A program made the translations under genes and the position numbers. A stretch of 64,000 nt of DNA from Dechloromonas aromatica (nom. nud.). Lineage in GTDB: Bacteria; Pseudomonadota; Gammaproteobacteria; Burkholderiales; Rhodocyclaceae. Each line of letters opens with the position of its first letter. Positions within the stretch are counted from its first letter, which is position 1. The stretch is taken from positions 1-64,000 of the forward strand of contig JAFIHA010000046.1 of assembly GCA_017848965.1 (NCBI GenBank), read 5' to 3'. Shown here piece after piece: positions 3,897 to 24,200 of the stretch. The notes below the pieces were generated by a model that was not told the DNA's origin, did not search any database, and saw nothing but the letters and a program-made list of their open reading frames with translations.

Positions 3897-3904
3897 GCAG
3901 TCGT

Positions 3905-3982
3905 GATCAACGGCAAACCTGCGGCGACGCAGGGACGCAAAGCCTCCGGTCTGGCGCTTGTCAGATAGCGGGGTTGCCCAGC
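3905..3982 (+). promoter_or_regulatory. Cyclic-di-GMP class I (GEMM) riboswitch
   Basis: The core has the conserved GEMM-I blocks in order: GGCAAACC (3912-3919), a hairpin CCTGCG-GCGA-CGCAGG with a GNRA loop, GGGACGCAAAGCCTCCGG (about 3932-3949), a variable arm, then ATAGCGGGGTTGCC (about 3965-3978). The closing helix GGCAA (3912-3916) pairs perfectly with TTGCC (3974-3978). The ligand in this class is cyclic-di-GMP. The element is on the plus strand and reads into the small membrane protein at 4076 and the diguanylate cyclase at 4370, not into the adhesin. No clear terminator follows, only a short GCCCG/CGGGC hairpin near 4010-4030, so ON or OFF action cannot be told. Confidence 0.92.
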
Positions 3983-4075
3983 CCAAGATCTCGGCCATCT
4001 GCCGGGACCTGCCCGAAAACTCCAACGGGCGCTCGCGTGATGGTCTTTCCAACGTATCAAGACAAAGGAAAGATC

Positions 4076-4315
4076 ATGATCAAGAACCACCAGGCTTTCG
4101 CTCCCACTCCCCTGCACGGTCTTTATCGCCGTCGGACGACGGCTTGCGCGCCCGCACCGGCCAGCGTCTGGCTGAGTCGCTACCTGCCGGGACTGATCCT
4201 GAAACTTGCGCTGCTGATTCTGGTCTGTCAGTGGGTGCCGCTATACGGCGGTCTAATTGAAGACCTGTTCGGGCCGCTCACGCAGAGCTTGAGTTTTGCC
4301 CTGACTCGCCTTTAG
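4076..4315 (+). CDS. Small single-span membrane protein downstream of the riboswitch
   Basis: This 79-aa protein of unknown family starts at an ATG behind AAGGAAAGATC and ends at TAG 4313. Its N-terminal 35 residues are basic and polar. Residues about 40-62 (LPGLILKLALLILVCQWVPL) form one hydrophobic span, followed by a short amphipathic tail. It is the first gene after the cyclic-di-GMP riboswitch and lies 54 bp before a diguanylate cyclase gene, so the two are probably cotranscribed. Longer reading frames that begin inside the aptamer were discarded. Function is unknown. A role in signalling or surface attachment is only suggested by context. Confidence 0.7.
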   Translation: MIKNHQAFAPTPLHGLYRRRTTACAPAPASVWLSRYLPGLILKLALLILVCQWVPLYGGLIEDLFGPLTQSLSFALTRL

Positions 4316-4369: not shown

Positions 4370-6055
4370 GTGCCTTTCAGAAACCTCTTGCTTGATGACG
4401 AGAAGGCCTGCGTGCTGGCGGTCGATGACACGCCAGCCATCCTGCAATTGCTGGAGATGGCGCTCGGCATCGATTACGAAGTGGTGACCGCCGAATCCGG
4501 GGCGCAGGCGCTGGAAATCTTCCCGCAGCGGCGCTTCGACCTCGTGCTGCTCGATCTGCTGATGCCGGGGATGAACGGTTTCGAGACCCTGGCCGAGTTG
4601 CAGAAGTTGCCGTCGTTCAACGGTACGCCGGTGATCTTCCTGACCGCCATGGACGACCTGGCGAGCGAGTGCAGCGCGCTGGAAATGGGCGCCGACGACT
4701 ACATCACCAAGCCGTTCAAGCCCAACCTGGTGCGCCTGCGCATCGCCAACATCCTGCATCGCGTCCGCCTGCAGCGTCATCTCTCGCTGGCCCTGGCCGG
4801 CGCCGACCAGGGCCTGTGGTCCTGGGATCTGGCGAGCGACCAGGTGCGCGTCGCCGCCGGCTGGAGCGAGCCGCTGGGCTGCGCCAACGGCGAGGCGGCG
4901 GGCGAGGTCGCCGGCTGGGCGGCACTGGCGCACGCCGATTGCGGCGCCGTCATCGAGCAGGCGCGGGCGGCCTACCTGGCCGGCGAGCGTCCGGCCTTCG
5001 AGGCCGACGTCCGGCTGCGCACGCTGAAGGGCGGCTGGAAGTGGTTCAACATCTATGGCAAGTCGGGCAACCGGCAGTCGCTGGTCGGCACCTACCGCAA
5101 CATCGACGCCAAGAAGGCGGCCGAACTGGCGCTGCGCGACAGCGAGGAGCGCTTGCGCCACGTCATGGACGCTACCGGCGAAGGCATCTGGGATTGGCAG
5201 GTGGGGAGCGCCATGGCCCGCCACAACGCCGCCTGGAGCCGCATCCTGGGCCTCGACGAAGGCGCGCACGAACACGAGATCGCAGGCGTTGCCGCCTTGA
5301 TCCATCCCGACGACCGGCCGGCGCACGCTGCCGCGCTCGCTGCCTGCCTGGAGCGGGCGCCGTCCTTCGCCCTCGAATACCGGATTCGCCACGCCAGCGG
5401 CAATTATCTCTGGGTCATGGATCGCGGCAAGGTGGTCGAGCGCGCGGCAGATGGCACGGCACTGCGCCTGGTCGGCGCCTTCCAGGATATTTCCGAGAGC
5501 AAGCGGCTGGAGGAGGAATACCGGCGGCTGGCCTTGTTCGATACCCTGACCGGCTTGCCCAACCGCCGCCTGCTGGTCGACCGCATGGAACAGGCGATCG
5601 TCCAGAACCGCCGCCAGGCCTCGCTCGGCGCGCTGATGTTCATCGATATGGACCGCTTCAAGGAACTCAACGACAGCCTCGGCCATGATTGCGGCGACCT
5701 GTTGTTGATCGAGGTCGGGCGTCGCCTGCAGGCCTGCGTGCGGCGGATGGATACGGTGGCCCGATTGGGCGGCGACGAATTCATCGTCATGCTGCCGCTG
5801 CTCTCGGCGGAAGACGAGGTCGCCATGAAGCACGCGCAGGCGGTTGGTCACAAGATCCTGCTTGCCCTCGGCCAGCCCTACCGGCTCGGCGAATGCAGCT
5901 ACGACAGCTCGCCGAGCATCGGTCTGACGCTGTTTTCCGGGGCCCCGGAAGAGAGCGTCGACGCCGTCCTCAAGCGCGCCGACGCCGCCATGTACGAGGC
6001 CAAGCACCGCGGCCGCAACCAGTTGGCGCTGGCCGCGCCGTCGCCGCTTACCTGA
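4370..6055 (+). CDS. Diguanylate cyclase, REC-PAS-PAS-GGDEF
   Basis: The protein of 561 aa would make cyclic-di-GMP from GTP in the cytoplasm. An N-terminal receiver (about 14-130) has the acidic pair in VLAVDDT, the phospho-acceptor in LVLLDLLMPG and the lysine in ITKPFKP. Two PAS/PAC units follow (about 142-245 and 258-380). The GGDEF domain (about 390-550) keeps an intact GGDEF motif near residue 466, with the inhibitory I-site RRMD five residues before it. It starts at GTG 4370 behind GGAGCG. It lies downstream of the cyclic-di-GMP riboswitch, so its product may control its own transcript. Its end overlaps the convergent TolC gene by 8 bp. Confidence 0.93.
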   Translation: MPFRNLLLDDEKACVLAVDDTPAILQLLEMALGIDYEVVTAESGAQALEIFPQRRFDLVLLDLLMPGMNGFETLAELQKLPSFNGTPVIFLTAMDDLASECSALEMGADDYITKPFKPNLVRLRIANILHRVRLQRHLSLALAGADQGLWSWDLASDQVRVAAGWSEPLGCANGEAAGEVAGWAALAHADCGAVIEQARAAYLAGERPAFEADVRLRTLKGGWKWFNIYGKSGNRQSLVGTYRNIDAKKAAELALRDSEERLRHVMDATGEGIWDWQVGSAMARHNAAWSRILGLDEGAHEHEIAGVAALIHPDDRPAHAAALAACLERAPSFALEYRIRHASGNYLWVMDRGKVVERAADGTALRLVGAFQDISESKRLEEEYRRLALFDTLTGLPNRRLLVDRMEQAIVQNRRQASLGALMFIDMDRFKELNDSLGHDCGDLLLIEVGRRLQACVRRMDTVARLGGDEFIVMLPLLSAEDEVAMKHAQAVGHKILLALGQPYRLGECSYDSSPSIGLTLFSGAPEESVDAVLKRADAAMYEAKHRGRNQLALAAPSPLT

Positions 6056-7484
6056 TCGCCCACAGGCCGAGCCGGCCGATGCTCGCCGCCAGTTTCAGGC
6101 GGGCGCCCTGCCAGCCGGCGTAGGCTTCGATGCGCCGCTGTTCGGCGGAAGCGACGGCGCTCTGCGCGCTGAGCAGTTCGAGGATGTTGCCGACGCCGGC
6201 GCGGAAGCGCCCTTCGGCGACCTCGAACGAACGACGCGCGCTGTCGAGCAGCGTGCTGGCGGCGGCGATGTGTTCCTGGCGGGTGTTCAGCGCCTGGTAG
6301 CTCTTCCAGACCTCGAGTGCGACCTGTTGTTCGAGCTGGTTCAGCTTGGCCGCCCTGACCTCGACCTGGCTGCTCGCGGCGCGCACCTTGTAGCCGCGGC
6401 CGAAACCTTCGAACAGCGGGATGCTCAGCTGCATGCCCAGCGCGCTGTCGCGGAAGACGGCGCCGGTCGGCGGGTAGCCGGAAATCGGGATGTGCTTGTC
6501 CTGCTGGCGTTCGCTGGCTTCGGCAGAAAACACCAGGGTCGGCCGGCCTTCGGCGCGGGTGGCGCGGACCCGCGCTTCGGCCGCTTCCAGTTCGGCGCGC
6601 GCGGCGAGCAGCGCCGGATGGTGGCTGCGCGCGTCCTCGAACAATTCGCCGACGCTACGCGGCGCCGGGCCGGGCAGCTTGAGTTCGCGTTCGGGCAGGC
6701 GCAGCGGCGTGTCCGGCGAGAGGCCAAGGGCGGTGGCCAGGCTGCCCAGCGCGTTCTGTAGTTCGCCTTCGGCGGTGACCCGTTTGAGGCGGGCGTCGGA
6801 CAAGGCGACCGCCGCCTGCAGTTTGTCGGTGAGGGCGCCGACACCGGCCGCGTACTTGGCCTCGGTCGCCTGGTGGCTCTTGCCGGCCGCCGCCTCGGCA
6901 ACCTGTGCGGCGCGCAGCAGCGCCTGCGCCATCTGGACGTCGAAATAGGCTTGGGCGGCATCGAGCAATGCCCGTTGCAGCGTCAGGTCGTGGCTGGCGT
7001 TGGCGGCGTCGAGCAGGGCGCTGGCCTGGTCGGTGTTGGCGGCGCGCAGGCCGGAATCGAACAGTGTCCAGCTCAGCTTGAGGCTGCCGGCGCGGGTGCG
7101 CGGCCGGGTTTCGGCGTCGAGCACGGCGTACTTGCCGTCGTAGGCACTGCTCGATTTCTGCGCCAGGTAGCTGACGCTGGCCGCGACGCTGGGCAGGTAG
7201 GCGGCGCGGGCGACCCCGAGCAGGGCCGCCTGGGTGCGCGCCTCGCCCCAGGCGGCGCGGGTCTGCGGGTTCTGGCAGAGGGCGCGCTCGATCGCTTCCG
7301 CCAGTTCGAGCGGCGTCGGCAGCGGGCCGAATTCGCAGGGGTTGATTCCCGTCTCGTCGCCCAGCGCCCGGCTGGCGCTGGCGGCGGTGCGTGCTTCGGT
7401 CGAGAACGGGTCGGGCGCTGCTGCCAGCGTCCCGCTGGCGAGGACGACGCCGGCGAGCAGGCCGGAGAGGCGGCGGAGTATCAC
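6048..7484 (-). CDS. TolC-family outer-membrane channel of a type I secretion system
   Basis: This 478-aa protein has a hydrophobic N-terminal signal (LLAGVVLASGTLAAA). It carries the two outer-membrane-efflux repeats typical of TolC, rich in helical stretches such as RALLDAAQAYFDVQ and LEVWKSYQALNTR. It would form the outer-membrane exit duct for the exporter encoded just upstream. It starts at GTG 7484, overlapping the ABC transporter stop as GTGA, which implies translational coupling. It is the last gene of the peptide-export operon and converges on the diguanylate cyclase gene. Confidence 0.92.
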   Translation of the reverse strand: MILRRLSGLLAGVVLASGTLAAAPDPFSTEARTAASASRALGDETGINPCEFGPLPTPLELAEAIERALCQNPQTRAAWGEARTQAALLGVARAAYLPSVAASVSYLAQKSSSAYDGKYAVLDAETRPRTRAGSLKLSWTLFDSGLRAANTDQASALLDAANASHDLTLQRALLDAAQAYFDVQMAQALLRAAQVAEAAAGKSHQATEAKYAAGVGALTDKLQAAVALSDARLKRVTAEGELQNALGSLATALGLSPDTPLRLPERELKLPGPAPRSVGELFEDARSHHPALLAARAELEAAEARVRATRAEGRPTLVFSAEASERQQDKHIPISGYPPTGAVFRDSALGMQLSIPLFEGFGRGYKVRAASSQVEVRAAKLNQLEQQVALEVWKSYQALNTRQEHIAAASTLLDSARRSFEVAEGRFRAGVGNILELLSAQSAVASAEQRRIEAYAGWQGARLKLAASIGRLGLWAIR

Positions 7485-9640
7485 CAGCCACCTCCGCCGG
7501 CGATGCGGCCAAGGTCGAGTTGCGCCGCCGGCAGGTCGCGCAGCACGCGGCCGGCGTCGAGGACGATGACGCGGTCCGCGCTGGCGATGGTTTCCGGGCG
7601 GTGGGCGACGATGACGCGGGTGATGTTGAGCCGCTTGATCGCCTGGTTGACCCGCTTTTCGCAGGAGATGTCGAGATGGCTGGTGGCCTCGTCGAGGAAG
7701 AGGATCGCCGGCTGCTTGTAGAGGGCGCGGGCGAGCAGGACGCGCTGCTTCTGGCCGCCGGAGAGGGCAGCGCCCATGTCGCCGATCAGCGTGTTGTAGG
7801 CCATCGGCATCGCCTGGATGTCGTCGTGGATCGCCGCCAGCTTCGCGCATTCCTCGATCCGCGCGAAATCCGGGCGGGGATCGAAGAAGCTGATGTTGTC
7901 GGCGATCGAGCCGGCGAACAGGACGTCGTCCTGGAGCACGGTGCCGACCATGCCGCGCAAGGCCTCGAAACCGACCTGGGCGACGCTGGCGCCGCCGACC
8001 AGGACTTCGCCTTCGTTCGGCGTGCGGATGCCGAGCATGGCGCTGATCAGCGTCGATTTGCCGCAGCCGGACGGGCCGACGATGGCGATCGATTCGCCGC
8101 GTTCGATCCGCAGGTCGATGCCGTCGAGTACCCAGGGCTCGCCGTCGGCGTAGCGGTAGCGCAGGCCGCGCAGCTCGATCGAGGCTTCCGGCGTCGCCTG
8201 CCGCGCCGTCGCCGGCAGCGGCGGCGTGCTTGCTTCGGGCTCGGCAAGGACGATGTCGGCCAGGCGCTCGCCCTGCAGTTGCAGCATCTTGAGGTCGACC
8301 AGCTTGTCGATCAGGGCGCTGACCCGCGAATCGAACTGGTCCTTGTAGGCGGAAAACGCCATCAGCGCGCCGACCGTGAAGTTGCCGTCGAGGATCAGCC
8401 TGGCGCCGAGCCAGATGACCAGGATGCGCTCGACGCCGAACAGGATGCCGTTGATCAGGCGGTAGAAGATCTGCAGCTTCTGGTTGCGCAGATCGGCGTT
8501 GATCTGGTCGACCAGGAGGCTGAGCCAGGTCGAGCGGCGCTCCTCCTGGCGCTGGAAGAGCTTGATGCTGCGCACGCCGCGCACCGTCTCGAGAAAGTGG
8601 CTCTGCTGCTTGGCGGCATGCACGATCTGTTCTTCGGTGGCGTTGCGCAGCGGCCGGTACCAGAGCCAGCGGACGATCCCGTAGAGCGCCATGGCGCCGA
8701 CCGCGATCCACGCCAGCGAGGGGCTGTAGATGAACATCATGACCAGGGTGACGATGGTCATCAGGCCGTCGAGGATGCCCTCGACGAAGGCGGTGGTCAG
8801 CGTCTTCTGGATGACGTCGATCGAACTGAAGCGGGAAACGACGTCGCCGAGGTGGCGTTTCTCGAAATAATCGACCGGCAGACGCAGCAGGTGGCTGAAG
8901 ATGTTGGCCCGCCATTGCAGGTTGAGCGTCGTCGACATGTGCATGATGACCCACGAGCGCAGCGTGCCGATCCCCTGCTGGAGCAGCATCAGCAGGCCGA
9001 AGCCGAGGGCGAGCGTGGTCAGCAGGTCGCGGTCGCCGGAGACGACGACGTTGTCGATCACCCACTGCAGGAAGAAGGGGCTGACCAGGGCGAAAATTTC
9101 CAGCGAGACGGCGAGCAGCAGGATCTGGCCGAGCGAGCGGAAAAGCCCGGTGACGTGCCCGAGCAGGTCGCGCAGGCGGATGCGCTGGCGGAAGCTGAGC
9201 GGCTTGAACTCGGGGTTCGGCCACAGTTCGAGGGCAACCCCGGTGAACTGGCCGGAGACCTCGTCGAGGCTCAGCTTGCGCAGGCCGAAGGCGGGGTCGT
9301 GGATGGTCACCGTGTTGCGCTCGACCGCCTTGAGGACGACGAAATGGTTGAAGTTCCAGTGCAGGATGCAGGGCAGGCGCAGCTGCGGCAGGTCGTCTAG
9401 TTCCAGCTTGACCGGCCGCGTCGTCAGCTTCAGCGAGTGGGCGATCTGCATCAGGTGGCCGAGCGTGCTGCCCTTGATCGAGACCAGGAAGATGCGGCGC
9501 AGCGTGGCGAGGTCGGTGCGCAGGCCGTGGTAGCCGGCGACCATGGCGATGCAGGCGAGCGCGCATTCGGTCGCCTCGGTCTGCAGGATCAGCGGCAGTT
9601 TGCGGCGCAGGCCGAAGGAAACGTTGTCGAGGAAGGACAT
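7481..9640 (-). CDS. Peptidase-containing ABC exporter (CvaB/RaxB type)
   Basis: This 719-aa inner-membrane exporter cuts leaders after a double glycine and exports the mature peptide. The C39 peptidase domain (about 15-140) has Gln20, catalytic Cys26 in TECALACIAMV, His99 in HFVVL and Asp115 in HDPA, so it should be active. This differs from the inactive domain of LapB-type adhesin exporters. A six-span membrane domain follows (about 160-450), then a nucleotide-binding domain with Walker A GPSGCGKST (near 518), signature LSGGQKQR and Walker B AILFLDEAT. With the HlyD and TolC genes it forms a complete type I system, and the three double-glycine peptide genes upstream are the obvious cargo. 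Confidence 0.95.
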   Translation of the reverse strand: MSFLDNVSFGLRRKLPLILQTEATECALACIAMVAGYHGLRTDLATLRRIFLVSIKGSTLGHLMQIAHSLKLTTRPVKLELDDLPQLRLPCILHWNFNHFVVLKAVERNTVTIHDPAFGLRKLSLDEVSGQFTGVALELWPNPEFKPLSFRQRIRLRDLLGHVTGLFRSLGQILLLAVSLEIFALVSPFFLQWVIDNVVVSGDRDLLTTLALGFGLLMLLQQGIGTLRSWVIMHMSTTLNLQWRANIFSHLLRLPVDYFEKRHLGDVVSRFSSIDVIQKTLTTAFVEGILDGLMTIVTLVMMFIYSPSLAWIAVGAMALYGIVRWLWYRPLRNATEEQIVHAAKQQSHFLETVRGVRSIKLFQRQEERRSTWLSLLVDQINADLRNQKLQIFYRLINGILFGVERILVIWLGARLILDGNFTVGALMAFSAYKDQFDSRVSALIDKLVDLKMLQLQGERLADIVLAEPEASTPPLPATARQATPEASIELRGLRYRYADGEPWVLDGIDLRIERGESIAIVGPSGCGKSTLISAMLGIRTPNEGEVLVGGASVAQVGFEALRGMVGTVLQDDVLFAGSIADNISFFDPRPDFARIEECAKLAAIHDDIQAMPMAYNTLIGDMGAALSGGQKQRVLLARALYKQPAILFLDEATSHLDISCEKRVNQAIKRLNITRVIVAHRPETIASADRVIVLDAGRVLRDLPAAQLDLGRIAGGGGW

Positions 9641-9668: not shown

Positions 9669-10937
9669 TCAGAGCTTGCCGCTCAGGCTGAACAGGGGTT
9701 CGAGCACCCACTCGTAGAGCTTGCGGCTTTCCTGGAGGACATCGGCTTCGAGCAGCATGCCCGCCTGCAGCGGCTGGGCGACGCCGTAGGCATTGATGCT
9801 CTGCTGTTCGAGGGCGACGCTGATCAGGTAGAGCGGTTCGCTGCCCTGGGCTTCGGCGCCTGGCGCCAGCAGGCTGGAAATCTCGCTGCCGGGCAGCGCG
9901 GTGCGCGCCACCGAAACGACGGTGCCGCGGGCGTGGCCGAACTTCTGGTAGGGATAGGCCTGGTAGCGCATCAGCACCTGGGCGCCCGGGCGGACAAAGC
10001 CGACCGCCCGGCTCGGCGCGTACAACTGCGCTTCGAGCCGGCTGCCGGCGGGGACGATGCTGAGCAGCGGGCGCCGGCCATCGACCGCCTGGCCGACTTC
10101 GGCGACCACCGCGGTGGCGGTGCCGTCGATCGGCGCCGTGATCGCCAGCATGCGGCGCCCTTCGCTTTCGCTCAGTTCCTGGCTGGTCGAGGATATGACG
10201 CGTTCGATCTGGGCCAGCTGGTTCTCGTGCTTGAAGCGCAAGGCGTCGAGGCTTTCCTGGCGGGTGCCGAGTTCGCGGCGCAGGGCAATCTGCTCGCGCT
10301 CGACGCTTTTCAGGCGGGTCTGCTGGTCGAGCAGTTCCTCGCGCTTCTGCTGGCGCTGTTCGCGCGAGATGTAATCCTGTTCGAGGAGCGACTGGTAGCG
10401 GCCGCTGGTTTCCTCGGCCAGGGCGACGCGGGCGCGCTGGCCTTCGAGCAGGCTGTCGATCTTCTCCAGTTCGCTGCGCAGCGCCGCCACCTGCCGGGTC
10501 AGGCCTTCCTGTTCCTCGCGCTGCAGTTGCCGGGTGCGTTCGAGTTCGCGGGTCAGCGATTCCTGGCGGGCGCCGAGCTGCTCGCTGACACTGGCAAAGA
10601 CCGAGCCCAGGGTGCTGCTCTGGCGCTCGCTGGAAATCAGGTAAAGGGTGTCGCCGGCCTTGACCGACTGGCCTTCGGCGACCAGCTTCTTGCCGACGAT
10701 GCCGGTCTGCGGCGGATAGATGCGCAACAGGCCGGCGCTTGGTACCAGCTGGCCGGTGACGCTGCTGCGCTTGGTATAGCTGCCCCAGGTGAACAAGGCG
10801 ACGATGGCCAGCGTGCAGACCAGGGCGGCCAGGCTCAACAGGCGGTAGCTGAGTGGGCGGACGAGCAGGATTTCGCCGCAGGACTTGGGTTTTTGCGCGT
10901 CGAGCGCGGCGCGTCGGAACAGGGGCTGGTTGGCCAT
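9669..10937 (-). CDS. HlyD-family periplasmic adaptor (CvaA-like)
   Basis: The adaptor (422 aa from ATG 10937) links the ABC exporter to TolC. It has a short cytoplasmic N-terminus, one membrane span (about 34-54, LLSLAALVCTLAIVALFTW), a barrel/lipoyl half-motif, a long coiled coil (about 105-250, many EREQ/RREL heptads) and the second lipoyl half (APIDGTATAVVAEVGQ). A GTG at 11003 would add 22 residues, and neither start has a strong ribosome site. It lies 165 bp after the last small peptide gene, with a hairpin between them, and 28 bp before the exporter gene. Confidence 0.9.
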   Translation of the reverse strand: MANQPLFRRAALDAQKPKSCGEILLVRPLSYRLLSLAALVCTLAIVALFTWGSYTKRSSVTGQLVPSAGLLRIYPPQTGIVGKKLVAEGQSVKAGDTLYLISSERQSSTLGSVFASVSEQLGARQESLTRELERTRQLQREEQEGLTRQVAALRSELEKIDSLLEGQRARVALAEETSGRYQSLLEQDYISREQRQQKREELLDQQTRLKSVEREQIALRRELGTRQESLDALRFKHENQLAQIERVISSTSQELSESEGRRMLAITAPIDGTATAVVAEVGQAVDGRRPLLSIVPAGSRLEAQLYAPSRAVGFVRPGAQVLMRYQAYPYQKFGHARGTVVSVARTALPGSEISSLLAPGAEAQGSEPLYLISVALEQQSINAYGVAQPLQAGMLLEADVLQESRKLYEWVLEPLFSLSGKL

Positions 10938-11078
10938 GCTGAATGAATTCGGTTGGCGCTGGATGCTGTTGGGATTTTTCGGGACGGCCGAAATCGAGGC
11001 CACTGAAGGCGCCGGGAATTGGTCAGGAAAGCTGTCGGGAGAGCAGACGCGAGGCGGGTGAGGGCAGGTCGTTCAGGG

Positions 11079-11104
11079 ATCCGCCTCGCGCTGCCCAGGC
11101 GGAT
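11079..11104 (-). terminator. Hairpin between the peptide genes and the exporter genes
   Basis: ATCCGCCT and AGGCGGAT form a perfect 8-bp inverted repeat around a 10-nt loop, starting at the stop codon of the last peptide gene. There is no T-run, so it is more likely an RNA stabiliser or partial attenuator than a full terminator. Either would let the peptides be made in excess over the transporter. Confidence 0.5.
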
Positions 11105-11319
11105 TACTGGCAGGAACCGCCGAACAGGCCGCCAAGCAGACCGCCGAGCAGGCCGGTGACGGTGCCGACGAGGCCGCTGACCAGGCTGACCACCGGCGTC
11201 AGAATGCCGCCGACCAGGCCGAGGACCGGGTTCAGGATGCCGCCGAGCAGGCCGCCGAGATCCAGAGCGCCGCCGGAAACGGCTGCGATTTCAGTCTTGC
11301 TGAGTTCTTGAATTGCCAT
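11104..11319 (-). CDS. Double-glycine-leader glycine/leucine-rich peptide 1
   Basis: This 71-aa precursor has the leader MAIQELSKTEIAAVSGG, with a double-glycine cleavage site at 16-17 for the neighbouring C39 exporter. The predicted 54-residue mature peptide is nearly all Gly, Leu, Val and Ile. It is built of 11-residue repeats (NPVLGLVGGIL, TPVVSLVSGLV, GTVTGLLGGLL) with regularly spaced glycines. It alone of the three ends in GGSCQ with a cysteine. The first 38 residues are identical to peptide 2. The ribosome site is AAGGAGTAACAAC. It is likely a bacteriocin-like or surface-aggregating peptide. The closest known analogue by style is the Cdz glycine-zipper bacteriocins, an inference rather than a homology result. 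Confidence 0.85.
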   Translation of the reverse strand: MAIQELSKTEIAAVSGGALDLGGLLGGILNPVLGLVGGILTPVVSLVSGLVGTVTGLLGGLLGGLFGGSCQ

Positions 11320-11360
11320 GTTGTTACTCCTTGGATTTTCGTCAGGTCGAAATGACCCGA

Positions 11361-11567
11361 TCAGTTGCCCAACAGGCCGCCGAGCAGGCCGCCCAGCAGA
11401 CCGGTGACGGTACCGAGCAGGCCGCTGACCAGGCCGAGAACCGGGGTCAGCAGGCCGCCGACCAGGCCGAGGACCGGATTCAGGATGCCGCCGAGCAGGC
11501 CGCCGAGATCCAGGGCGCCACCGGAAACGGCAGCGATTTCAGTCTTGCTGAGTTCTTGAATTGCCAC
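11361..11567 (-). CDS. Double-glycine-leader glycine/leucine-rich peptide 2 (GTG start)
   Basis: The precursor has 68 aa starting at GTG 11567, behind AAGGAGTAGCAAC in the same place as the ATG of its two paralogs. The leader is the same as in peptide 1 (…IQELSKTEIAAVSGG). The mature part of 51 residues repeats the 11-residue unit three times (NPVLGLVGGLL, TPVLGLVSGLL, GTVTGLLGGLL) and ends in GGLLGN, without cysteine. It is a recent duplicate of peptide 1 at DNA level. The longer open frame extending upstream crosses peptide 3 out of frame and is not coding. Export by the adjacent C39 transporter is expected. Confidence 0.83.
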   Translation of the reverse strand: MAIQELSKTEIAAVSGGALDLGGLLGGILNPVLGLVGGLLTPVLGLVSGLLGTVTGLLGGLLGGLLGN

Positions 11568-11617
11568 GTTGCTACTCCTTGTGTTGAACGAAAACTGGTG
11601 AAGGTGAATTGTTTTTC

Positions 11618-11830
11618 TTAGCGGCTCAGCAGACCGCCGAGCAGGCCGGTGACAGCGCCGAGCAGGCCGCCGACCAGGCTGAAGGTCGGAGCGACCAGAC
11701 CGCCGACGAGGCTGAAGACCGGACCCAGGAGGCCGCCCAGGAGGCTGCCGACGTCGGCATGCAGGTCCAGGGTCAGGGTGCCGCCGGAGACGGCTTCGAT
11801 TTCGGTCTTGCCAAGTTCTTGAATTGCCAT
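11618..11830 (-). CDS. Double-glycine-leader glycine/leucine-rich peptide 3 (first gene of operon)
   Basis: The precursor has 70 aa starting at ATG 11830 behind AAGGAGTAACAAAC. The leader MAIQELGKTEIEAVSGG has the double glycine at 16-17. The mature part begins with a more polar stretch (TLTLDLHADVG) that peptides 1 and 2 lack. It then has 11-residue repeats GPVFSLVGGLV, APTFSLVGGLL and GAVTGLLGGLL, with Phe replacing Leu at two positions. It is the most divergent of the three and the first after the promoter region, so it may be a partner peptide rather than a simple copy. Function is unproven. Confidence 0.85.
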   Translation of the reverse strand: MAIQELGKTEIEAVSGGTLTLDLHADVGSLLGGLLGPVFSLVGGLVAPTFSLVGGLLGAVTGLLGGLLSR

Positions 11831-11979
11831 GTTTGTTACTCCTTGACTGATTGAAAAACGCCACACCGGGTGGCATGCATTGCCCGTAGACAATTCTGTT
11901 TTGCAGTTATGCATATTCGAGTTTCAAAAACAGTACAAACAATGCACAATGCAAATTGTTGCGACATGATAATCAAATT
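11831..11979. promoter_or_regulatory. Divergent AT-rich control region between peptide operon and histidine kinase
   Basis: This 149-bp region is much richer in A+T than its flanks and must hold promoters for both directions. On the minus strand a TTGTAC and TATGCA pair 17 bp apart (about 11938-11910) is a weak candidate. Direct repeats of TGCATT/TTGCA type occur near 11943-11957 (aatgcacaatgcaaattg). No known operator was recognised. Confidence 0.4.
11854..11874 (-). promoter_or_regulatory. Possible attenuator in the leader of the peptide operon
   Basis: On the minus strand GCCAC-CCGGT-GTGGC is followed by GTTTTTC, about 24-30 nt before the peptide 3 start. The stem is only 5 bp, so termination would be weak. 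It may act as an attenuator or be chance. Confidence 0.3.
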
Positions 11980-14214
11980 ATGCGGAATTGCAATCTTGCT
12001 CTAGGGGTTTTCGTAAAATCGCGCAGCGTAAGCGGTGAAAGTGAAAATTCGTCGCCGCGGCGATGGCTGCCTTTCGTCCGTGGCGCGCTGTCGGCCTGCG
12101 CCATTCATGCCGCTGCCGCGCTGGCCGAGGAGGAAGTGCACGAAGCTGCGGCTTTGTCTTATCCTGATGCAATGATCACCAGCCTCCTGCTCCTCGTCCT
12201 GTTCGTTCTTTTCTGCTGCGTGGTGTTCTGGCGGGCGGCCAGGATCGAGCGGGTGTTGCAGCGGCTCGGTGACGGCGATCCGGCGGCGCGCACCGGGCTG
12301 GCGCCCTGGGCGCCGCTCGGTCGTCTGGCGCAGCGCGTCGATTGGGCGGCCGAACGCCTGGCCGAGGAAAGGCGGCGCTTGGCCGACAGCGAGGGACGCC
12401 TGCGCATCGCCCTGCAGGGCTGCGACATCGGCGTCTGGGACTGGCAGCTCGACAGCGGCCGCATCTATTACTCGCCGCGCTGGAAAACCCTGCTTGGTTT
12501 TGCCGAGGACGAGACGCCGGGACACGCCGAGACCTGGCTGACGCGGGTCCATCCCGACGATCTGGCGCAGGTGACGGCGGCGCTCGACGAGCACCTGTCG
12601 GGGCACAGCGAAATCTTCCTCTGTGAGCACCGGCTACGCCACAAGCGCGGCGACTATCTCTGGGTGCAGCAGAGCGGCGTCGCCAGCCGCGACGATAGCG
12701 GCCGGGTGCTGCGCATGATCGGCGCGCTGGCCGACGTTTCGGCGCACAAGGCGGCGCAGGCGGAACTGCTGAGCAGCCGGGAAGCCTACCGCTCGGTGGT
12801 GGAAGGGGTGACGCAGGTGATCCTGCGCAGCGATGTCGCCGGGCGGCTGAGTTTTCTCAACCCGGCCTGGCAGGAACTGACCGGGCACAGCATCGACGAG
12901 GCGCTCGGCAAAACGCTGGCCAGCTTCGTGCACGACGACGAACGTCACAGTGTCTCGGCTTTCTTTGCCGCGCTGGCCGACGGGGCGGCCGGCGATCTTT
13001 CCTGCGAATTGCGCCTGCGCTGCCGCGACGATGCCTGGCGTTGGTTCGCCTTGTACCTGCGGGCCACGCCGGCGGCCGGCGCGGCGTCGGCCGCCGGCGT
13101 GCTGAGCGACATCGCGGCGCAGAAGGCGAGCGAGGCGGCCTTGCTGCGCAGCAACCGCGAACGCGATGCGATCCTCACCCTGGGGCCGGATGGCTTCGTC
13201 TTCGCCGACGAACAGGGGCGGGTCAGTTTCGTCAATCCCGCCTTCGCCGGCATGACCGGCTTGGCCGCCGGGCTGGTGGTCGGTCGGCCGCTGGCCGAAC
13301 TCGACCTGCACATCGCCCAGTTGGGCGGCAGGTCGCCGGGTTTCGCCGAAGTCGGCGAGGGCGCCGACGGCCTGCTCCAGCTCGAACGTCCGCACAAGAC
13401 AGTGATCCGCTGGCTGGCCCGGCTGATCCCCGACGGTGCCGGCGGGATCCACGGTCGCGTCATCTACCTGCGCGACATCACCCGCGAAAGCGAGGTGGAC
13501 CGGATGAAGAGCGATTTCCTGTCGACCGCGGCGCATGAACTGCGGACGCCGATGGCGAGCATTTTCGGTTTCTCCGAGCTGCTCTTGTCGCGCGAATTCG
13601 AGCCGGCGATGCAGCGCGACCTGCTTGAGCGCATCCATCGCCAGACGCGCAACCTGATCAACCTGGTCAACGAGCTGCTCGACCTGTCGCGGATCGAGGC
13701 GCGCGGCGGCAAGAGCTTCAAGATGCAGGTCCAGGAAATCACCCCGGTCGTGCTCAACGCGGTCGCCGCGCAGTACGTGCCGGCGCCGACCCACAAGCTG
13801 GAGTTCGACTGGCCGAAGGATCTGCCCAAGGTCAGGATCGACGCCGAGAAGTTCCAGCAATGCCTGATCAACGTGCTGAGCAATGCCGTCAAGTATTCGC
13901 CGGGCGGCGGCGTCATCCGGGTCAACGCGCTGCGCCGCGGCGAGGCGGAAAGCGCCTGCATCGGCGTCGCCATCAGCGACCCGGGGATCGGCATGACGCC
14001 GGAGCAGAGCGCACGCATCTTCGAGCGCTTCTACCGCGCCGATCCGAGTGGCGCCATCCTCGGTTCCGGTCTCGGCATGTCCTTGGTCAAGGAATACATG
14101 GCGGTTTTCGGTGGCGATGTCGAGGTGGTCAGCGCGCCCGGGCAAGGGACGACCGTCGTCCTCTGGCTGCCGGCGGCCGACGCTCTGGGCGAATCTGGCG
14201 GGAGCGGACGGTGA
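11980..14214 (+). CDS. Membrane-anchored PAS sensor histidine kinase
   Basis: About 745 aa. One clear membrane span (MITSLLLLVLFVLFCCVVFW) lies near residues 65-84, with an earlier signal-like Ala-rich stretch. Three PAS units follow, the first at LRIALQGCDIGVWDW, the last at GPDGFVFADEQGR. The HisKA box has the phospho-histidine in STAAHELRTPMAS (near 517), followed by an HATPase domain with N (CLINVLSNAVKYS) and G boxes (DPGIGM, GSGLGMSLVK). The start is uncertain: ATG 11980 lacks a clear ribosome site, and TTG 11956 or ATG 12172 are alternatives. The stop overlaps the response regulator gene. It lies between the peptide operon and the Tad locus and could regulate either. Confidence 0.85.
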   Translation: MRNCNLALGVFVKSRSVSGESENSSPRRWLPFVRGALSACAIHAAAALAEEEVHEAAALSYPDAMITSLLLLVLFVLFCCVVFWRAARIERVLQRLGDGDPAARTGLAPWAPLGRLAQRVDWAAERLAEERRRLADSEGRLRIALQGCDIGVWDWQLDSGRIYYSPRWKTLLGFAEDETPGHAETWLTRVHPDDLAQVTAALDEHLSGHSEIFLCEHRLRHKRGDYLWVQQSGVASRDDSGRVLRMIGALADVSAHKAAQAELLSSREAYRSVVEGVTQVILRSDVAGRLSFLNPAWQELTGHSIDEALGKTLASFVHDDERHSVSAFFAALADGAAGDLSCELRLRCRDDAWRWFALYLRATPAAGAASAAGVLSDIAAQKASEAALLRSNRERDAILTLGPDGFVFADEQGRVSFVNPAFAGMTGLAAGLVVGRPLAELDLHIAQLGGRSPGFAEVGEGADGLLQLERPHKTVIRWLARLIPDGAGGIHGRVIYLRDITRESEVDRMKSDFLSTAAHELRTPMASIFGFSELLLSREFEPAMQRDLLERIHRQTRNLINLVNELLDLSRIEARGGKSFKMQVQEITPVVLNAVAAQYVPAPTHKLEFDWPKDLPKVRIDAEKFQQCLINVLSNAVKYSPGGGVIRVNALRRGEAESACIGVAISDPGIGMTPEQSARIFERFYRADPSGAILGSGLGMSLVKEYMAVFGGDVEVVSAPGQGTTVVLWLPAADALGESGGSGR

Positions 14215-14576
14215 AGGCATTGCAACGGGTATTGATCGTCGAGGATCAGGCCGACCTGCGCCTGCTCATCCGCCTGACCCTGGAGCCGCTCGGCGTCGAA
14301 CTGCGCGAGGTGGCCAACGGCATGGAGGCGCTGTTGGCGGCGCGCAGCTTCAAGCCGGACGTGCTGATCCTCGACGTCATGCTGCCCGGTGGTGTCGATG
14401 GCTACCAGATCTGTCAGGCGATCAAGCAGGACCCGCTGACCCGAGCGACGCGGGTGATCATGGTCAGCGCCCGCGGCCAGAAAAGCGACATCGAGCGCGG
14501 TTACCAGGCGCAGGCCGATCGTTACCTGGTGAAACCCTTCAGTCCTGCACAACTGCTCAAGGAGGTCGGGGCTTGA
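14211..14576 (+). CDS. Single-domain response regulator
   Basis: This 121-aa receiver domain has no output domain (CheY/Spo0F-like architecture). It has the acidic residues in VLIVEDQ, the phospho-acceptor Asp in VLILDVMLPG, Ser in IMVSARG and the lysine in YLVKPFS. It starts at GTG 14211, overlapping the kinase stop (GTGA), so kinase and receiver are translationally coupled partners. Its stop codon lies inside the flp promoter. Without an output domain it must pass its signal through protein contact or a phosphorelay. The HTH-receiver protein at 23235 is a nearby regulator with an output domain. Confidence 0.9.
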   Translation: MKALQRVLIVEDQADLRLLIRLTLEPLGVELREVANGMEALLAARSFKPDVLILDVMLPGGVDGYQICQAIKQDPLTRATRVIMVSARGQKSDIERGYQAQADRYLVKPFSPAQLLKEVGA

Positions 14577-14650: not shown

Positions 14651-14815
14651 ATGTGGGAATCTGTCAAGAAATTCGTTAAAGATGAAGAAGGTGCAACCGC
14701 TGTCGAGTACGGGCTGATTGCCGCCCTGATCGCCGTGGCGATCATTCTTTCGGTGACCGATGTCGGTACCAAGCTGAAAGCCGTTTTTAATTCGATCAAG
14801 GCTGCTTTGCCCTGA
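14651..14815 (+). CDS. flp: Flp-type major pilin of the Tad pilus
   Basis: This 54-aa prepilin is the subunit of the Tad/Flp pilus fibre. It has the Flp motif: leader WESVKKFVKDEEG, the processing site after Gly, then A-T-A-V-E-Y-G and the hydrophobic helix LIAALIAVAIILSV. The conserved Glu-Tyr pair of Flp pilins is present. The start ATG 14651 is chosen because GGAG sits 6 bp before it; upstream in-frame ATGs have no ribosome site. It would be processed by the TadV peptidase encoded next. Confidence 0.93.
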   Translation: MWESVKKFVKDEEGATAVEYGLIAALIAVAIILSVTDVGTKLKAVFNSIKAALP

Positions 14816-14857: not shown

Positions 14858-15337
14858 GTGTCGCTGGCAGCGCAGTTGTTGTTGAGTTTCTGGGCCGGGG
14901 CGCTGGCCTTTGCCGACTGGCGTCACCGACGTCTGCCGAACGCTTGGTTGCTGTTCGGATTTGCTTTCGGTGTGGTGCATCTGGCGGTACGCGGCGCCAT
15001 GCCATTCGGTGGCTCGCCGCTCGATGCGGCAATGGCTTCGGTGGCGGCCCTGCTCGGTTTTCTGCCCCTCTATGCGGCAGGCTGGATGGGGGCGGGAGAC
15101 GTCAAGTTTCTGGCCGTCATCGGCTGGCTGGGCGGTTTGTCGCTGCTGGCCGGGGCCTTGTTGTACGGCTCGTTGCTGGCCGGTGGGCTGGCCTTGCTGC
15201 TGCTGCAGTCGGGCAGCTTGCCGGGGGCGCGGGTGGCGGGCGTGTTGCGGGGGCGGATTCCCTACGGAAGCTGTCTGGCGGTGGCACTGCTGCCGCAGTT
15301 GTGGGGGTGGCTGGATCTCGGGTCCGTGCTGCCGTAG
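14858..15337 (+). CDS. tadV: TadV/CpaA prepilin peptidase
   Basis: A short A24-family aspartic peptidase of 159 aa with about five membrane spans. The two catalytic aspartates are visible in FADWRHRRLPN and GAGDVKFLAVIGW. It lacks the N-terminal methylase domain of PilD, as is typical of TadV. It starts at GTG 14858. It should mature the Flp pilin and the TadE/TadG pseudopilins. Confidence 0.92.
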   Translation: MSLAAQLLLSFWAGALAFADWRHRRLPNAWLLFGFAFGVVHLAVRGAMPFGGSPLDAAMASVAALLGFLPLYAAGWMGAGDVKFLAVIGWLGGLSLLAGALLYGSLLAGGLALLLLQSGSLPGARVAGVLRGRIPYGSCLAVALLPQLWGWLDLGSVLP

Positions 15338-15349
15338 TCGGGGGAGTGC

Positions 15350-15784
15350 ATGGTGTCGCAGAGGGCGGGTCGGAGTGCCCAGCGCGGGGCGGTGGTCATC
15401 GAGTTCGCGCTGGTGTTCGTGCTGTTTTTCATCGTCATGTACGGCATCGTCGCCTACGGCGTCATCTTTGCCGTCAAGCACTCCCTGGTACAGGCCGCCA
15501 ACGAAGGGGCGCGGGCGGCGGTGCGCGATGTCGGCGGCGTCACGGCGCGCGTCGAGCTGGCGCGCACGGTGGCCGCCGAGAGCCTCGCCTGGCTCGGCGA
15601 CAAGGCTCCCGAACCGCAGGTCAGCGCGGCGCTCTGCGCAGCGACGCCTTACGTCTGCCTGAAGGTCGAACTGGCCTACGACTACGCCGCCAATCCGCTG
15701 GTTCCGGCATTGCCGGCGCTCGGCGTCGCGCTGCCGGAACGGCTGACCGGGCAGGCCATGGTACAGCTCGACGCGGTTTATTGA
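15350..15784 (+). CDS. tadE: TadE-like minor pseudopilin
   Basis: A 144-aa protein with a prepilin-like N-terminus (QRGAVVIEFALVFVLFFIVMYGIVAYG), with Glu five residues after the Gly as in TadE. A mostly extracytoplasmic domain follows with a Cys pair near residues 94 and 101 (LCAATPYVCLK). TadE proteins are processed by TadV and act in pilus assembly initiation. It lies 12 bp after tadV. Confidence 0.9.
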   Translation: MVSQRAGRSAQRGAVVIEFALVFVLFFIVMYGIVAYGVIFAVKHSLVQAANEGARAAVRDVGGVTARVELARTVAAESLAWLGDKAPEPQVSAALCAATPYVCLKVELAYDYAANPLVPALPALGVALPERLTGQAMVQLDAVY

Positions 15785-15815
15785 TTGCTTTGGAGTCCTC
15801 AGGGAGTAAGGCAAA

Positions 15816-16724
15816 TTGGGCAAGACGCAAAGGATAGTGGGGGCATTGCTGATCGTCGCGGCCATCGGGCTGGCGGCGTATGCATGGGTGCTCAGCAAGG
15901 ACATGGCGGCGCAGCAGCCGGCGCCGATGCAGCAGGTGGTGGTGGCCGCGCAGCGGATTCCCGCCGGCACGCTGCTGACGGCGCAACACCTGCAACTGAT
16001 GGCCTTCCCGTCGCGCCCGGCCGGCAGCTACGCGGCGGTCGAGGCGGTGCTCGGCAAGACCGTGCCGGTTGACCTCGCCGCCGGCGAGCCGCTGCTTGCC
16101 GAACGCATCGAAGGGCCGGCGACGCCGTCGCTGAAACAGTTGCAGCCCGGCGAGCGGGCGGTGGCGATCAAGGTGGACGAAGTGGTCGCCGTCGGCAACC
16201 GGCTGGCGCCGGGCGATCTGGTCGATGTCTTCGCCACCTTCCGCCGCAACAACGAGGAAATCGCCGACAGCCAGGCCCGCCTGTTGCTGTCCGGACTGCG
16301 CATCCTGGCTTTCGGCGGGCTCGACGCGCCGGAAGCGAAGAAGACCGGCAGCACCATGCGCAATGTCGCCGAGACGCCGCGTACCGCCGTCCTCGCCGTG
16401 CCGCTGGCCGATGTCGAACGGTTGGCGCTGGCCGCCGAAGCCGGCCGCCTGCTGCTCGCGCTGCGTCCGCTCGATGCCGCCCCGGCGGCGGCTCCGGAAG
16501 CCGCGCCGCCCGGCCAGGCGGCGCCTGCCGCGTTGCTGTCGGCGCCGGCGCAGGCGCTCAGCCTGCGCGAGTTGGCCGGCAAGGTTGGCGCCGTCCCGCT
16601 GCCGGCCAAGCCGTCGGCCGGCGTCGCGGGCAGGCCGGCGGCGCCGGCACCGACGGTCAAGGTGATGCACGGGCTCAAGGAGACCAGCGTGCAGGTCAGT
16701 AATCGGAATGGGGCTGGGCAATGA
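15816..16724 (+). CDS. rcpC: RcpC/CpaB, Tad pilus assembly protein with SAF domain
   Basis: 302 aa. One N-terminal membrane span (IVGALLIVAAIGLAAYAWVL) is followed by a SAF domain (VVVAAQRIPAGTLLTAQHLQ… VPVDLAAGEPLL), the mark of CpaB/RcpC, and an Ala/Pro-rich C-terminal half. It is thought to work in the periplasm with the RcpA secretin. The only plausible start is TTG 15816, behind AGGGAGTAAGGCAAA. The stop overlaps the rcpA start (ATGA). Confidence 0.9.
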   Translation: MGKTQRIVGALLIVAAIGLAAYAWVLSKDMAAQQPAPMQQVVVAAQRIPAGTLLTAQHLQLMAFPSRPAGSYAAVEAVLGKTVPVDLAAGEPLLAERIEGPATPSLKQLQPGERAVAIKVDEVVAVGNRLAPGDLVDVFATFRRNNEEIADSQARLLLSGLRILAFGGLDAPEAKKTGSTMRNVAETPRTAVLAVPLADVERLALAAEAGRLLLALRPLDAAPAAAPEAAPPGQAAPAALLSAPAQALSLRELAGKVGAVPLPAKPSAGVAGRPAAPAPTVKVMHGLKETSVQVSNRNGAGQ

Positions 16725-18076
16725 ACAAGACGAGTTTCCGCTACCTTCAATTGGCCGTCAGCCTGGCGCTGGCGTTGCCGGCGCTGCTGATCGCTCCGGC
16801 CGCCGTCGCCGAGGCCCTGCCGGCGAGCGGCGAGATCGAGCTTGCCGCCGGCGGGCAGCGCCTGGTCGATACGCCGAAGACGGTCAGCCGGCTGGCGGTC
16901 GGCAATGAAGCGGTGGCCGCGGTCAAGGTGATCGGCAGCCGCCAGTTCGTGATTCAGGGCAACCAGCCCGGCGTCACCACGCTGATGGTCTGGCAGCGTG
17001 GTGAAAAGACGGCGGACCGCTACCCGTTGCGCGTCAACAAGGCGGTGGCGCTGCCGCCGGAAGGCGCCGGCGAACTGCAACTGAAGGCGGCCGGCGACCT
17101 CAGCGTGCTCTCGGGCACCGCCAGCGATCTGGCAGCGCAGGCGGTGGCTCGCGAGTACGCGGCGCACGGTGCCGGCGACGCCAAGCCGGCGGTGGTCGAC
17201 CGCAGCGTGATGGGCTTCGGCGGCGAAGTGCAGATCGACGTCCGGGTCGTCGAGTTCAGCCGCAAGATCCTCAACAAGGCCGGTCTCAGCATCCTTTCCA
17301 ACAAGTCGGGCTTCACTTTCGGCAGCTACGCGCCGGGCAGCCTGAGCAAGGCACAGCTAAGCAACGGCGCGATCAGCGTCGAGGCCGAACTGCCGATCAA
17401 CCAGGCGCTCAACCTGCTGGTTGGCAACGCCAAGAAGAATCTGCTCGGCGTCGTCAGCGTCCTCGAGGGCAACGGCTTCGCCCGTACCCTGGCGCGGCCG
17501 ACGTTGGTCGCGCAGAGCGGCCGCGATGCCGAATTCCTCGCCGGCGGCGAGTTTCCGGTGCCGGTGCCGCAGGCGCTCGGGCAGACGACGATCCAGTACA
17601 AGCCCTACGGCATCCGCCTGCAGGTGACGCCGACCGTGCTCGCCGACAACCGTATCGCGCTCACCGTGGCACCGGAGGTCAGCGACCTCAACTTCGAGAA
17701 CGGCATCACCATCAACGGCGTCAGCGTCCCCAGCCTGAGCACGCGGCGGGCGACCACCAGCATCGAACTGGGCAACGGCGAGAGCTTCGTCATCGGCGGC
17801 CTGGTCAGCCAGGCGATGATGCGTAACGTGAACAAGATTCCCGGCCTCGGCGACCTGCCGCTGCTCGGCGCCTTCTTCAAGAGCATCAGCCTGTCGCGCG
17901 AGGACAAGGAGCTGCTGTTCATCGTCACGCCGCGCCTGGTGCGGCCGCTGGCGGCGGGCACCGACCTCGGGCCGATGCCGGGCGAGGAACTGGCGAACCG
18001 CGAATCCGGGCTGTGGCGCGACTGGCTGCTGTCCGATCAGGATGTGAATACCCGCTACACCGGATTTTCCAGGTAA
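16721..18076 (+). CDS. rcpA: RcpA/CpaC outer-membrane secretin of the Tad pilus
   Basis: 451 aa with a signal peptide (LAVSLALALPALLIAPAAVA), an N-terminal pilus-assembly secretin domain (LAAGGQRLVDTPKTVSRLAV), a BON-like middle and the secretin core. Core motifs include ARPTLVAQSGRDAEFLAGGE, YKPYGIRLQVTPTVL, VPSLSTRRATTSIELGNGES and the C-terminal LPLLGAFFKS … ELLFIVTPRLV. It forms the outer-membrane pore for the pilus. No rcpB/cpaD gene is seen beside it. Confidence 0.95.
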   Translation: MNKTSFRYLQLAVSLALALPALLIAPAAVAEALPASGEIELAAGGQRLVDTPKTVSRLAVGNEAVAAVKVIGSRQFVIQGNQPGVTTLMVWQRGEKTADRYPLRVNKAVALPPEGAGELQLKAAGDLSVLSGTASDLAAQAVAREYAAHGAGDAKPAVVDRSVMGFGGEVQIDVRVVEFSRKILNKAGLSILSNKSGFTFGSYAPGSLSKAQLSNGAISVEAELPINQALNLLVGNAKKNLLGVVSVLEGNGFARTLARPTLVAQSGRDAEFLAGGEFPVPVPQALGQTTIQYKPYGIRLQVTPTVLADNRIALTVAPEVSDLNFENGITINGVSVPSLSTRRATTSIELGNGESFVIGGLVSQAMMRNVNKIPGLGDLPLLGAFFKSISLSREDKELLFIVTPRLVRPLAAGTDLGPMPGEELANRESGLWRDWLLSDQDVNTRYTGFSR

Positions 18077-18093
18077 GCCGACGGAGAACAGGC

Positions 18094-19281: not shown

Positions 19282-19285
19282 CGGC

Positions 19286-21494: not shown

Positions 21495-21496
21495 GC

Positions 21497-23166: not shown

Positions 23167-23234
23167 CGCTAATATTGAAACCCCTGGCGTTTTAGCCCCA
23201 ATTCCAACCGATCGATCACGGTAATCGAGACAAA

Positions 23235-24180: not shown

Positions 24181-24200
24181 ACCGGTAGCGGAGACTGCCG

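Follow-up and report, generated by a model that had tools for sequence, protein, structure and literature searches.

The window, that is, the whole stretch of 64,000 nucleotides analysed here, contains three short genes arranged in tandem on the minus strand, which encode precursor A (11618..11830, 70 aa), precursor B (11361..11567, 68 aa) and precursor C (11104..11319, 71 aa) and are separated by 50 bp (A/B) and 41 bp (B/C). A and C begin with ATG, and B begins with GTG, a start that was absent from the first-pass annotation. Each precursor consists of a double-glycine (GG) leader, whose common form is [MV]AIQEL[SG]KTEI[AE]AVSGG, and a mature part of 53, 51 and 54 aa in A, B and C, respectively, the last of which ends in GGSCQ. 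Upstream of each start codon there is a AAGGAGTA(A/G)CAA stretch, i.e., a strong ribosome site. Gly, Leu and Val together make up 64–78% of the mature parts, only 1–4 residues are charged or His, and the GRAVY value is 1.3–1.5; that is to say, the peptides are very hydrophobic, and they end in very short polar or charged C-termini (SR, N and SCQ). The first-pass annotation had described three tandem precursors of 68–71 aa with nearly identical leaders ending in VSGG, a ribosome site of its own for each gene and mature parts of almost only Gly, Leu and Val, and the minus-strand coordinates, the leader alignment and the composition bear it out in each respect. There are no other clear copies of this peptide family in the genome assembly, and additional copies elsewhere were rejected since the remaining matches have E values of 0.034 or worse. 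It was also observed that the C-type peptides of the Azonexus group carry a single Cys second from the C-terminus (SCQ, SCR or TCR; window 11104–11115, P0001–P0003, L013 and L019), by which disulfide pairing could be possible.

The mature parts follow a rhythm of 11 residues. Among lags of 2–23, lag 11 gave the top self-match in every mature peptide (0.50, 0.55 and 0.40), with p = 0.0002, 0.0002 and 0.005 in a shuffle test on the maximum over lags, and the glycine vector of the mature parts of A–C peaks at a period of 3.7, near 11/3; both the 11-residue rhythm noticed at the first reading and the glycine spacing implied by its estimate of close to three helical turns per 11 residues thus stand. 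B can be written as four hendecads, LDLGGLLGGIL, NPVLGLVGGLL, TPVLGLVSGLL and GTVTGLLGGLL, of the kind xPVLGLVGGLL. In the C-terminal third of A, B and C there is a GxxxGxxxG pattern free of Pro and charge, and the prolines lie upstream of it. In the wider family, the best lag was 11 in 37 and 4 in 31 of 103 sequences (4 of the 107 proteins were skipped in the lag and substitution analysis), which means that the hendecad is common, not universal. The AlphaFold2 model of precursor C, computed from an alignment of 29 rows, is a single helix from residue 21 to residue 67, with mean pLDDT values of 85–92 per block over residues 31–60, 75.0 overall and a pTM of 0.41, and the low sequence complexity makes it less certain than these scores suggest. 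According to this model, the mature peptide probably forms one long hydrophobic helix. A nearly uncharged Gly/Leu helix of 50 residues is unlikely to be a soluble monomer in water, and therefore the product is probably either a surface or matrix assembly or inserted in a membrane.

The genes of an exporter system follow the precursors on the same strand. The HlyD-type periplasmic adaptor occupies 9669..10940 on the evidence of profile matches and homologue starts, its start being placed at 10940 as many homologues begin with MA.QPLF (the gene caller chose 11003); the C39 peptidase/ABC exporter occupies 7481..9640, and the TolC-type outer-membrane channel 6048..7484 (6048–7511 in the profile matches). 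The exporter contains the domains Peptidase_C39 (121.5 bits), ABC_membrane and ABC_tran, and its residues 12–701 align with PCAT1 (4ry2). The triad is present: Cys26, His99 and Asp115, together with Gln20, align with matching stretches of PCAT1, where the triad positions are likewise Cys, His and Asp, which we take to be the catalytic residues of that protein. An exporter with an intact C39 triad, followed by HlyD and TolC, had been read from the letters alone, and it is confirmed by these alignments. This exporter is the sole Peptidase_C39 match in the genome assembly, and it lies in one gene cluster with the GG-leader precursors, which supports the earlier view that the precursors have a C39 type I exporter of their own. 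The pairing of a C39 domain with a GG leader, by which cargo is exported and cleaved, is established for such exporters, and for this reason export and cleavage would be expected for A, B and C as well.

Upstream of precursor A, the region 11831..12171 separates the peptide operon from a divergent PAS kinase gene; one sigma-70-like match and one terminator-like hairpin were seen in it. The hairpin, with its T run at 11858–11877, is located in the 5′ leader just ahead of precursor A and is not above chance. A sigma-54 promoter was rejected, as its pattern is rarer than in shuffles and the lone nearby match overlies the start of precursor A. On the plus strand follow the PAS histidine kinase (12172..14214) and a response regulator receiver domain (14232..14576, 90.4 bits), both conserved neighbours, and then a Flp pilin (14651..14815, Flp_Fap 76.9 bits) with a precursor of 54 aa. 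The Tad pilus locus proper (14858..25838, plus strand) contains a Peptidase_A24 prepilin peptidase, TadE, RcpC/CpaB, the secretin RcpA, TadZ, the T2SSE ATPase TadA, two T2SSF proteins (TadB and TadC), a TPR protein that is presumably TadD by gene order, a Tad/Tad_C protein (TadG) and a MerR-like gene recognised from sequence only. With Flp pilin, prepilin peptidase, TadE, secretin, RcpC, TadZ, T2SSE ATPase and T2SSF all present, the window encodes a Tad locus.

On the other side of the cassette there is a response regulator/PAS/GGDEF diguanylate cyclase gene (4370..6055, plus strand; GGDEF 151.7 bits), which is also a conserved neighbour, preceded by a c-di-GMP-I-GGC riboswitch aptamer (3903..3982, plus strand; 61.2 bits, gathering 59). 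Between them, 3′ of the riboswitch, lies a small ORF of 79 aa (4076..4315, plus strand) with one hydrophobic stretch and no Pfam match, and small ORFs similar by eye follow the riboswitch in L011, L019 and L076; it is possible from this arrangement that 3903–4315 encodes a riboswitch-controlled microprotein of the GGDEF/Tad unit. The window begins inside a giant adhesin gene (1..3662, minus strand), cut by the contig start, of which the N-terminal 1220 aa are seen and match the LapA-type retention module NF033682 (80.6 bits, cut-off 50). Elsewhere in the genome there is a match to the LapG-type PF06035 (53.2 bits). These surroundings, with c-di-GMP/GGDEF genes and adhesin on one side and kinase and Tad on the other, were absent from the first-pass annotation.

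Searches gave at least 36 homologues of C at E ≤ 0.01 in one search with C as query, and at least 107 family homologues at E ≤ 1e-5 in one search with the alignment as query, each search scoring 8000 candidates. In a collection of species genomes, 14 of the 64 pattern matches encode a peptide relative; relatives occur in Rhodocyclaceae, Azonexus, Dechloromonas, Sulfuricella, Thiobacillus and Parasulfuritortus, and also in Gallionellaceae, Methylophilus, Nevskiales and unclassified Proteobacteria and Betaproteobacteria. The cassette for which related genomes were to be searched was found in the same arrangement, the HlyD, exporter and TolC genes all being adjacent to the peptide in 12 of the 14 relatives; the two exceptions are L015, which is cut by a contig end, and L022, an orphan peptide gene. 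Across nine pairs, dN/dS was 0.11–0.51, with nonsynonymous below synonymous substitution in all nine (corrected values of 0.10 and 0.55 for C versus L013, and 0.06 and 0.25 for B versus C). Judged from these comparisons, the peptide family is real and under purifying selection, and chance reading frames are ruled out by the homologues, the selection and the ribosome sites.

Several related observations were made at other loci. Members without an exporter in the surrounding stretch are found at L009 4035–4250, L022 9001–9207, L052 9755–9958 and L054 9494–9772. In a Gallionellaceae MAG (L021 4455–6796), the exporter is present as two overlapping frames, possibly a frameshift or an assembly error. 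L045, L046, L048 and L049 (genomes G795 and G918, from a different taxonomic family of the class) encode short peptides with comparable Gly/Leu repeats, for which the printed frames show no GG leader, and L026 1489–2193 (genome G226) encodes a 234-aa protein with a Sec-signal-like N-terminal stretch and repeats like LPLGAVTGLVGGLVPTVTGLLDGVLGG, where a similar repeat is perhaps exported by another route. GG peptides of a different kind, in whose mature part a short hydrophobic stretch is followed by a Cys-rich, mostly Pro-rich tail (e.g., APTPCQPAPTPC), occur at L056 10041–10253, L057 9829–10011, L058 9678–9896, L060 6690–6896 and L041 1501–1725.

The first-pass annotation had proposed a search of the precursors against bacteriocin profiles, and that search turned out negative: no bacteriocin family was matched in Pfam, NCBIfam, PHROGs or PADLOC. 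In Pfam and NCBIfam nothing was above cut-off for the precursors, the nearest peptide-like match being pheromone VP1 (E 0.2, A only); PADLOC gave no match for them; in PHROGs, phrog_16894, of unknown function, was matched by C at E 1.2e-4 and by A at 0.18, and not by B. Plasmid sequences gave no match either, which says little, as low-complexity sequence was filtered in that search. Few of the listed family homologues bear a name. These results bear on whether the three peptides are a freely diffusing class II microcin or bacteriocin set. Class II microcins and bacteriocins with double-glycine leaders have the same export layout, with C39 exporter, HlyD and TolC, and UniRef calls two of the homologues ‘Bacteriocin’. 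Against this stand the lack of any Pfam or NCBIfam match above cut-off, the very hydrophobic mature part with its extreme Gly/Leu/Val composition and the cassettes without a match to a curated bacteriocin family, without an extra called gene and with no immunity candidate beside the precursor, so that this explanation is given only a slight chance. Among the titles and abstracts listed from the open-access literature on Tad pili, retention adhesins, glycine zippers and Azonexus, none describes the peptide family. C39-exported GG peptides are a known kind, and what is new here is the architecture of the cargo and its unexpected genomic partner, Tad and adhesin.

In order to describe this partnership, 16 cassettes are counted, i.e., that of the window and those of L010, L012, L013, L015–L017, L019–L021, L023, L051, L053 and L073–L075. 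This count omits L014, which has the same peptide as L013 (its genome G1084 is counted among the genomes), and L008, L011, L018 and L055, which lie on the same contigs as L019, L075, L051 and L010, respectively; L015, at a contig end, and L021, with a split exporter frame, are included. Tad adjoins the cassette in 7 of the 16 (window, L073, L074, L075, L016, L051 and L053). The whole order of adhesin, GGDEF, TolC, exporter, HlyD, peptides, kinase, response regulator, Flp and Tad recurs in L073, in L074 and in L075 with L011 (one genome), and in the Sulfuricella loci L016 and L051 the peptides are again found together with the block from kinase to Tad. The cassette of L053 adjoins a Tad locus of a second lineage, whose TadZ is 34% identical to that of the window; since the TadZ proteins of L053, L078 and L079 are 71–79% identical to each other, two Tad lineages are recognised and not three. 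In G1081, no cassette interrupts the series of riboswitch, small ORF, GGDEF gene, kinase and Tad (L076); the cassette of this genome is found on a separate contig, where it has a GGDEF gene and an adhesin of its own (L013). A scan of 21 sources detected the c-di-GMP-I riboswitch clan in four of them (window, L011, L019 and L076); it gave no match in L013, L073 and L074, though a GGDEF gene and an adhesin are present there.

An adhesin with the retention module flanks 9 of the 16 cassettes (window, L073, L074, L075 through L011, L012, L013, L015, L019 and L021), and all nine exceed the NF033682 cut-off; moreover, in L052 an orphan peptide gene is followed, after about 100 bp, by the gene of a retention adhesin of 1549 aa. 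The background is 36 retention modules over the cut-off in about 211 Mb (60 genomes), or 0.34% per 20 kb, at which density even 8 of 16 would give p ~2e-16 if the loci were independent, which they are not. Such flanking would also suit a cassette that does no more than secrete the giant retention adhesin, the peptides being minor helpers or by-products, and in Pseudomonas aeruginosa Tad pili are reported to be under the control of PprB together with the Bap type I system (PMC6821963). The exporter here carries a C39 triad; a second type I exporter pair in the genome, without a C39 match, adjoins another retention adhesin, so that the C39 exporter need not serve adhesins; and peptide and exporter occur without a flanking adhesin in L016, L051 and L053 and in the four cassettes (L010, L017, L020 and L023) that have neither Tad nor adhesin in the examined flank. 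That the cassette serves the adhesin alone is accordingly held to be highly improbable. Taken as a whole, this neighbourhood speaks for attachment.

The linkage with Tad extends to the presence of the genes in whole genomes. In the genus (76 genomes; TadZ at E ≤ 1e-30, peptide at E ≤ 0.01), each was found in 8 genomes and 7 are common to both, i.e., TadZ is present in 7 of 8 peptide genomes versus 1 of 68 others (Fisher p 2.9e-8). The exceptions are G1084, with peptide and no TadZ (83% complete), and G1101, whose TadZ is 79% identical to that of G453, yet which has no peptide. Peptide and Tad lie on separate contigs in G1081 and G1102, the Tad of the latter being of the second lineage; the same is seen in G006, where, however, the region is broken off by the ends of both contigs. 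Among 79 chosen genomes, a Flp pilin over cut-off was found in 15 of 17 peptide genomes versus 8 of 57 in the family background (p 2.8e-8) and in none of the 5 genomes where a related exporter accompanies a Cys/Pro-rich peptide (p 8e-4), and within the family alone in 9 of 10 versus 8 of 57 (p 5e-6); all of these p values treat the genomes as independent, and 8 of the 17 peptide genomes belong to one genus. The two peptide genomes without Flp are an 83%-complete MAG and a Methylophilus. The 57 background genomes, each from a different genus, are G433–G492 without G453, G464 and G476, and whether they carry the peptide was determined by search. Weak matches were left out of the counts (G226, G134, G153, G037, G242, G795, G918 and G1018): that of G134 is a different GG-leader peptide, that of G226 is the 234-aa repeat protein, those of G795 and G918 are the short peptides without a GG leader, and G153, G037, G242 and G1018 showed no GG-leader precursor among the printed frames. 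Many genomes of the genus that lack the peptide also have retention adhesins. The co-occurrence of Tad and peptide may mark a sessile lifestyle rather than a joint function.

From the outermost peptide gene to the far end of the exporter genes, no extra called gene was found in any of the 16 cassettes (L015 is incomplete), and thus no candidate for a small membrane immunity protein like CdzI is seen in the operon. Short uncalled frames are present in some cassette gaps (at most five printed per locus), and none of those read by eye suggested a membrane protein common to the loci. As for the small ORF 3′ of the riboswitch, it accompanies the GGDEF/Tad unit even where the cassette is missing (L076), which makes it a poor candidate for immunity. 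Immunity may be encoded elsewhere.

This result bears on the main rival to an attachment role, namely that the peptides are contact-dependent glycine-zipper bacteriocins like Cdz of Caulobacter crescentus (CdzC, CdzD and CdzI), which are surface-retained contact toxins (PMC5380434): surface-aggregated helices would be brought to a neighbour that is drawn in by Tad and adhesin and would insert in its membrane, immunity being intrinsic or encoded elsewhere. The published search features of Cdz-like peptides are a length of 60–151 aa, a leader ending in G[G/A/S], one or two glycine zippers uninterrupted by Pro or charge, a short polar or charged C-terminus and a type I exporter within 10 kb (PMC5380434), and all of them are found in the window, in line with the likeness in logic to Cdz that had been suggested at the first reading. 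Several peptides are present at some loci (3 in the window and 4 in L017), Tad pili have been reported to kill prey by contact in Myxococcus (PMC12075869), and the description of the Cdz-like loci mentions adhesion genes near many of them and immunity genes that are hard to find (PMC5380434). However, cdzI of Caulobacter could not be deleted alone (PMC5380434), whereas the 16 cassettes have no extra called gene, and the Tad linkage is shared by Azonexus relatives and Sulfuricella; many Cdz-like loci, by contrast, are described as having transposases in their flanks and as occurring in some isolates only (PMC5380434). The toxin is therefore regarded as a doubtful explanation, with a modest chance of being right. 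A cassette without an immunity candidate, linked to attachment genes, would also suit self-lysis peptides like the gonococcal Naps, inactive on competitors and lysing part of the producers, whose DNA feeds the biofilm; three bacteriocin-like peptides without detectable antimicrobial activity have been reported to promote autolysis (PMC11798529). The Naps are cationic, whereas the peptides here have 1–4 charged residues or His, and self-lysis is considered very unlikely.

The first-pass annotation had left the choice between a contact-dependent toxin set and a hydrophobic extracellular matrix. The matrix, or attachment, part of it is strengthened by the Tad, retention adhesin and c-di-GMP genes with which the cassette is linked and co-occurs, and the toxin part is weakened by the 16 cassettes without an immunity candidate and the lack of a bacteriocin family match. 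The explanation that we favour, and to which we give about an even chance, is that the peptides are surface-retained, self-packing helices in a Tad/adhesin attachment programme, with a structural and not a toxic role. The three precursors would be exported via HlyD, the C39 ABC exporter and TolC, the C39 domain cutting after VSGG, and the products would be almost uncharged hydrophobic helices of 51–54 residues. Their hendecad-spaced glycines would line one face of the helix and allow helix–helix packing of the glycine-zipper type, and the packed helices might stay at or close to the cell surface in insoluble assemblies. In this position they would serve the encoded attachment programme of Tad (Flp) pili and LapA-type retention adhesin under c-di-GMP and two-component control, as an accessory matrix or adhesive that stiffens or coats the pili or the adhesin contacts. 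A narrower proposal, which we think unlikely but worth stating, is that the peptides are a type-I-secreted partner of the Tad pilus: helices of about 47 residues, near the size of the Flp pilin, would leave via TolC and then coat or bundle the Flp fibre or the retention adhesin, or form its tip. If so, the pilus would be decorated by peptides of a different secretion system, which could act as a hydrophobic glue or as a membrane-active helix carried on the pilus.

Gram-negative GG-leader peptides are usually taken for bacteriocins. The cassettes without an immunity candidate, together with Tad pili of two lineages (on separate contigs in two genomes), suggest a structural use of a C39 exporter in Proteobacteria. 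The Gly/Leu hendecad helix is an unusual natural module, and the parts list of the surface-retained assembly is defined and testable: peptides, pilus, retention adhesin, riboswitch and kinase.

Among the known systems, the class II microcins have the leader, C39 exporter, HlyD and TolC in common with the cassette and differ from it in the points given above. The Cys/Pro-rich loci are closer in machinery, with HlyD, TolC, a leader of the form MAIREL...EVQ.VSGG and an exporter 61–63% identical in the four loci compared (L056, L057, L058 and L060; only the peptide was seen in L041), and they differ in the Cys-rich, mostly Pro-rich tail and in the Flp pilin, found in none of the five genomes. Cdz resembles the window in its small GG-type glycine-zipper precursors, which are hydrophobic and expected to aggregate, in having more than one peptide per locus and in the adjoining type I exporter; by its description, it differs from the window peptides, which have no CdzI-like gene, have 11-residue repeats and are linked to Tad, retention adhesin and c-di-GMP genes, and no BLAST matches were reported for CdzC/D (PMC5380434). 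PprA-PprB of P. aeruginosa is a two-component system that has both Tad pili and a giant adhesin secreted by a type I system under its control (PMC6821963), a combination also present here, where the regulation would be deduced from gene order alone; the accessible part of that account mentions no GG peptide. The published precedents cut both ways as analogies, Cdz and the Myxococcus Tad pilus pointing to contact killing and the EbfG proteins of Synechococcus elongatus to biofilm. EbfG1–4, several small GG-motif proteins, and the conserved Cys of their peptidase transporter, PteB, are needed for biofilm (PMC4997328); EbfG4 is located both in the matrix and on the cell surface, and EbfG1–3 form amyloid in a test system (PMC9981879). 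By that description they differ from the single long Gly/Leu hendecad helix predicted here with Tad as its neighbour, and they resemble the window in combining several small GG proteins with a cysteine-peptidase transporter, so that a biofilm or matrix role of the peptides would be drawn by analogy, and a second, structural use of C39 exporters would have its comparison in the cyanobacterial EbfG.
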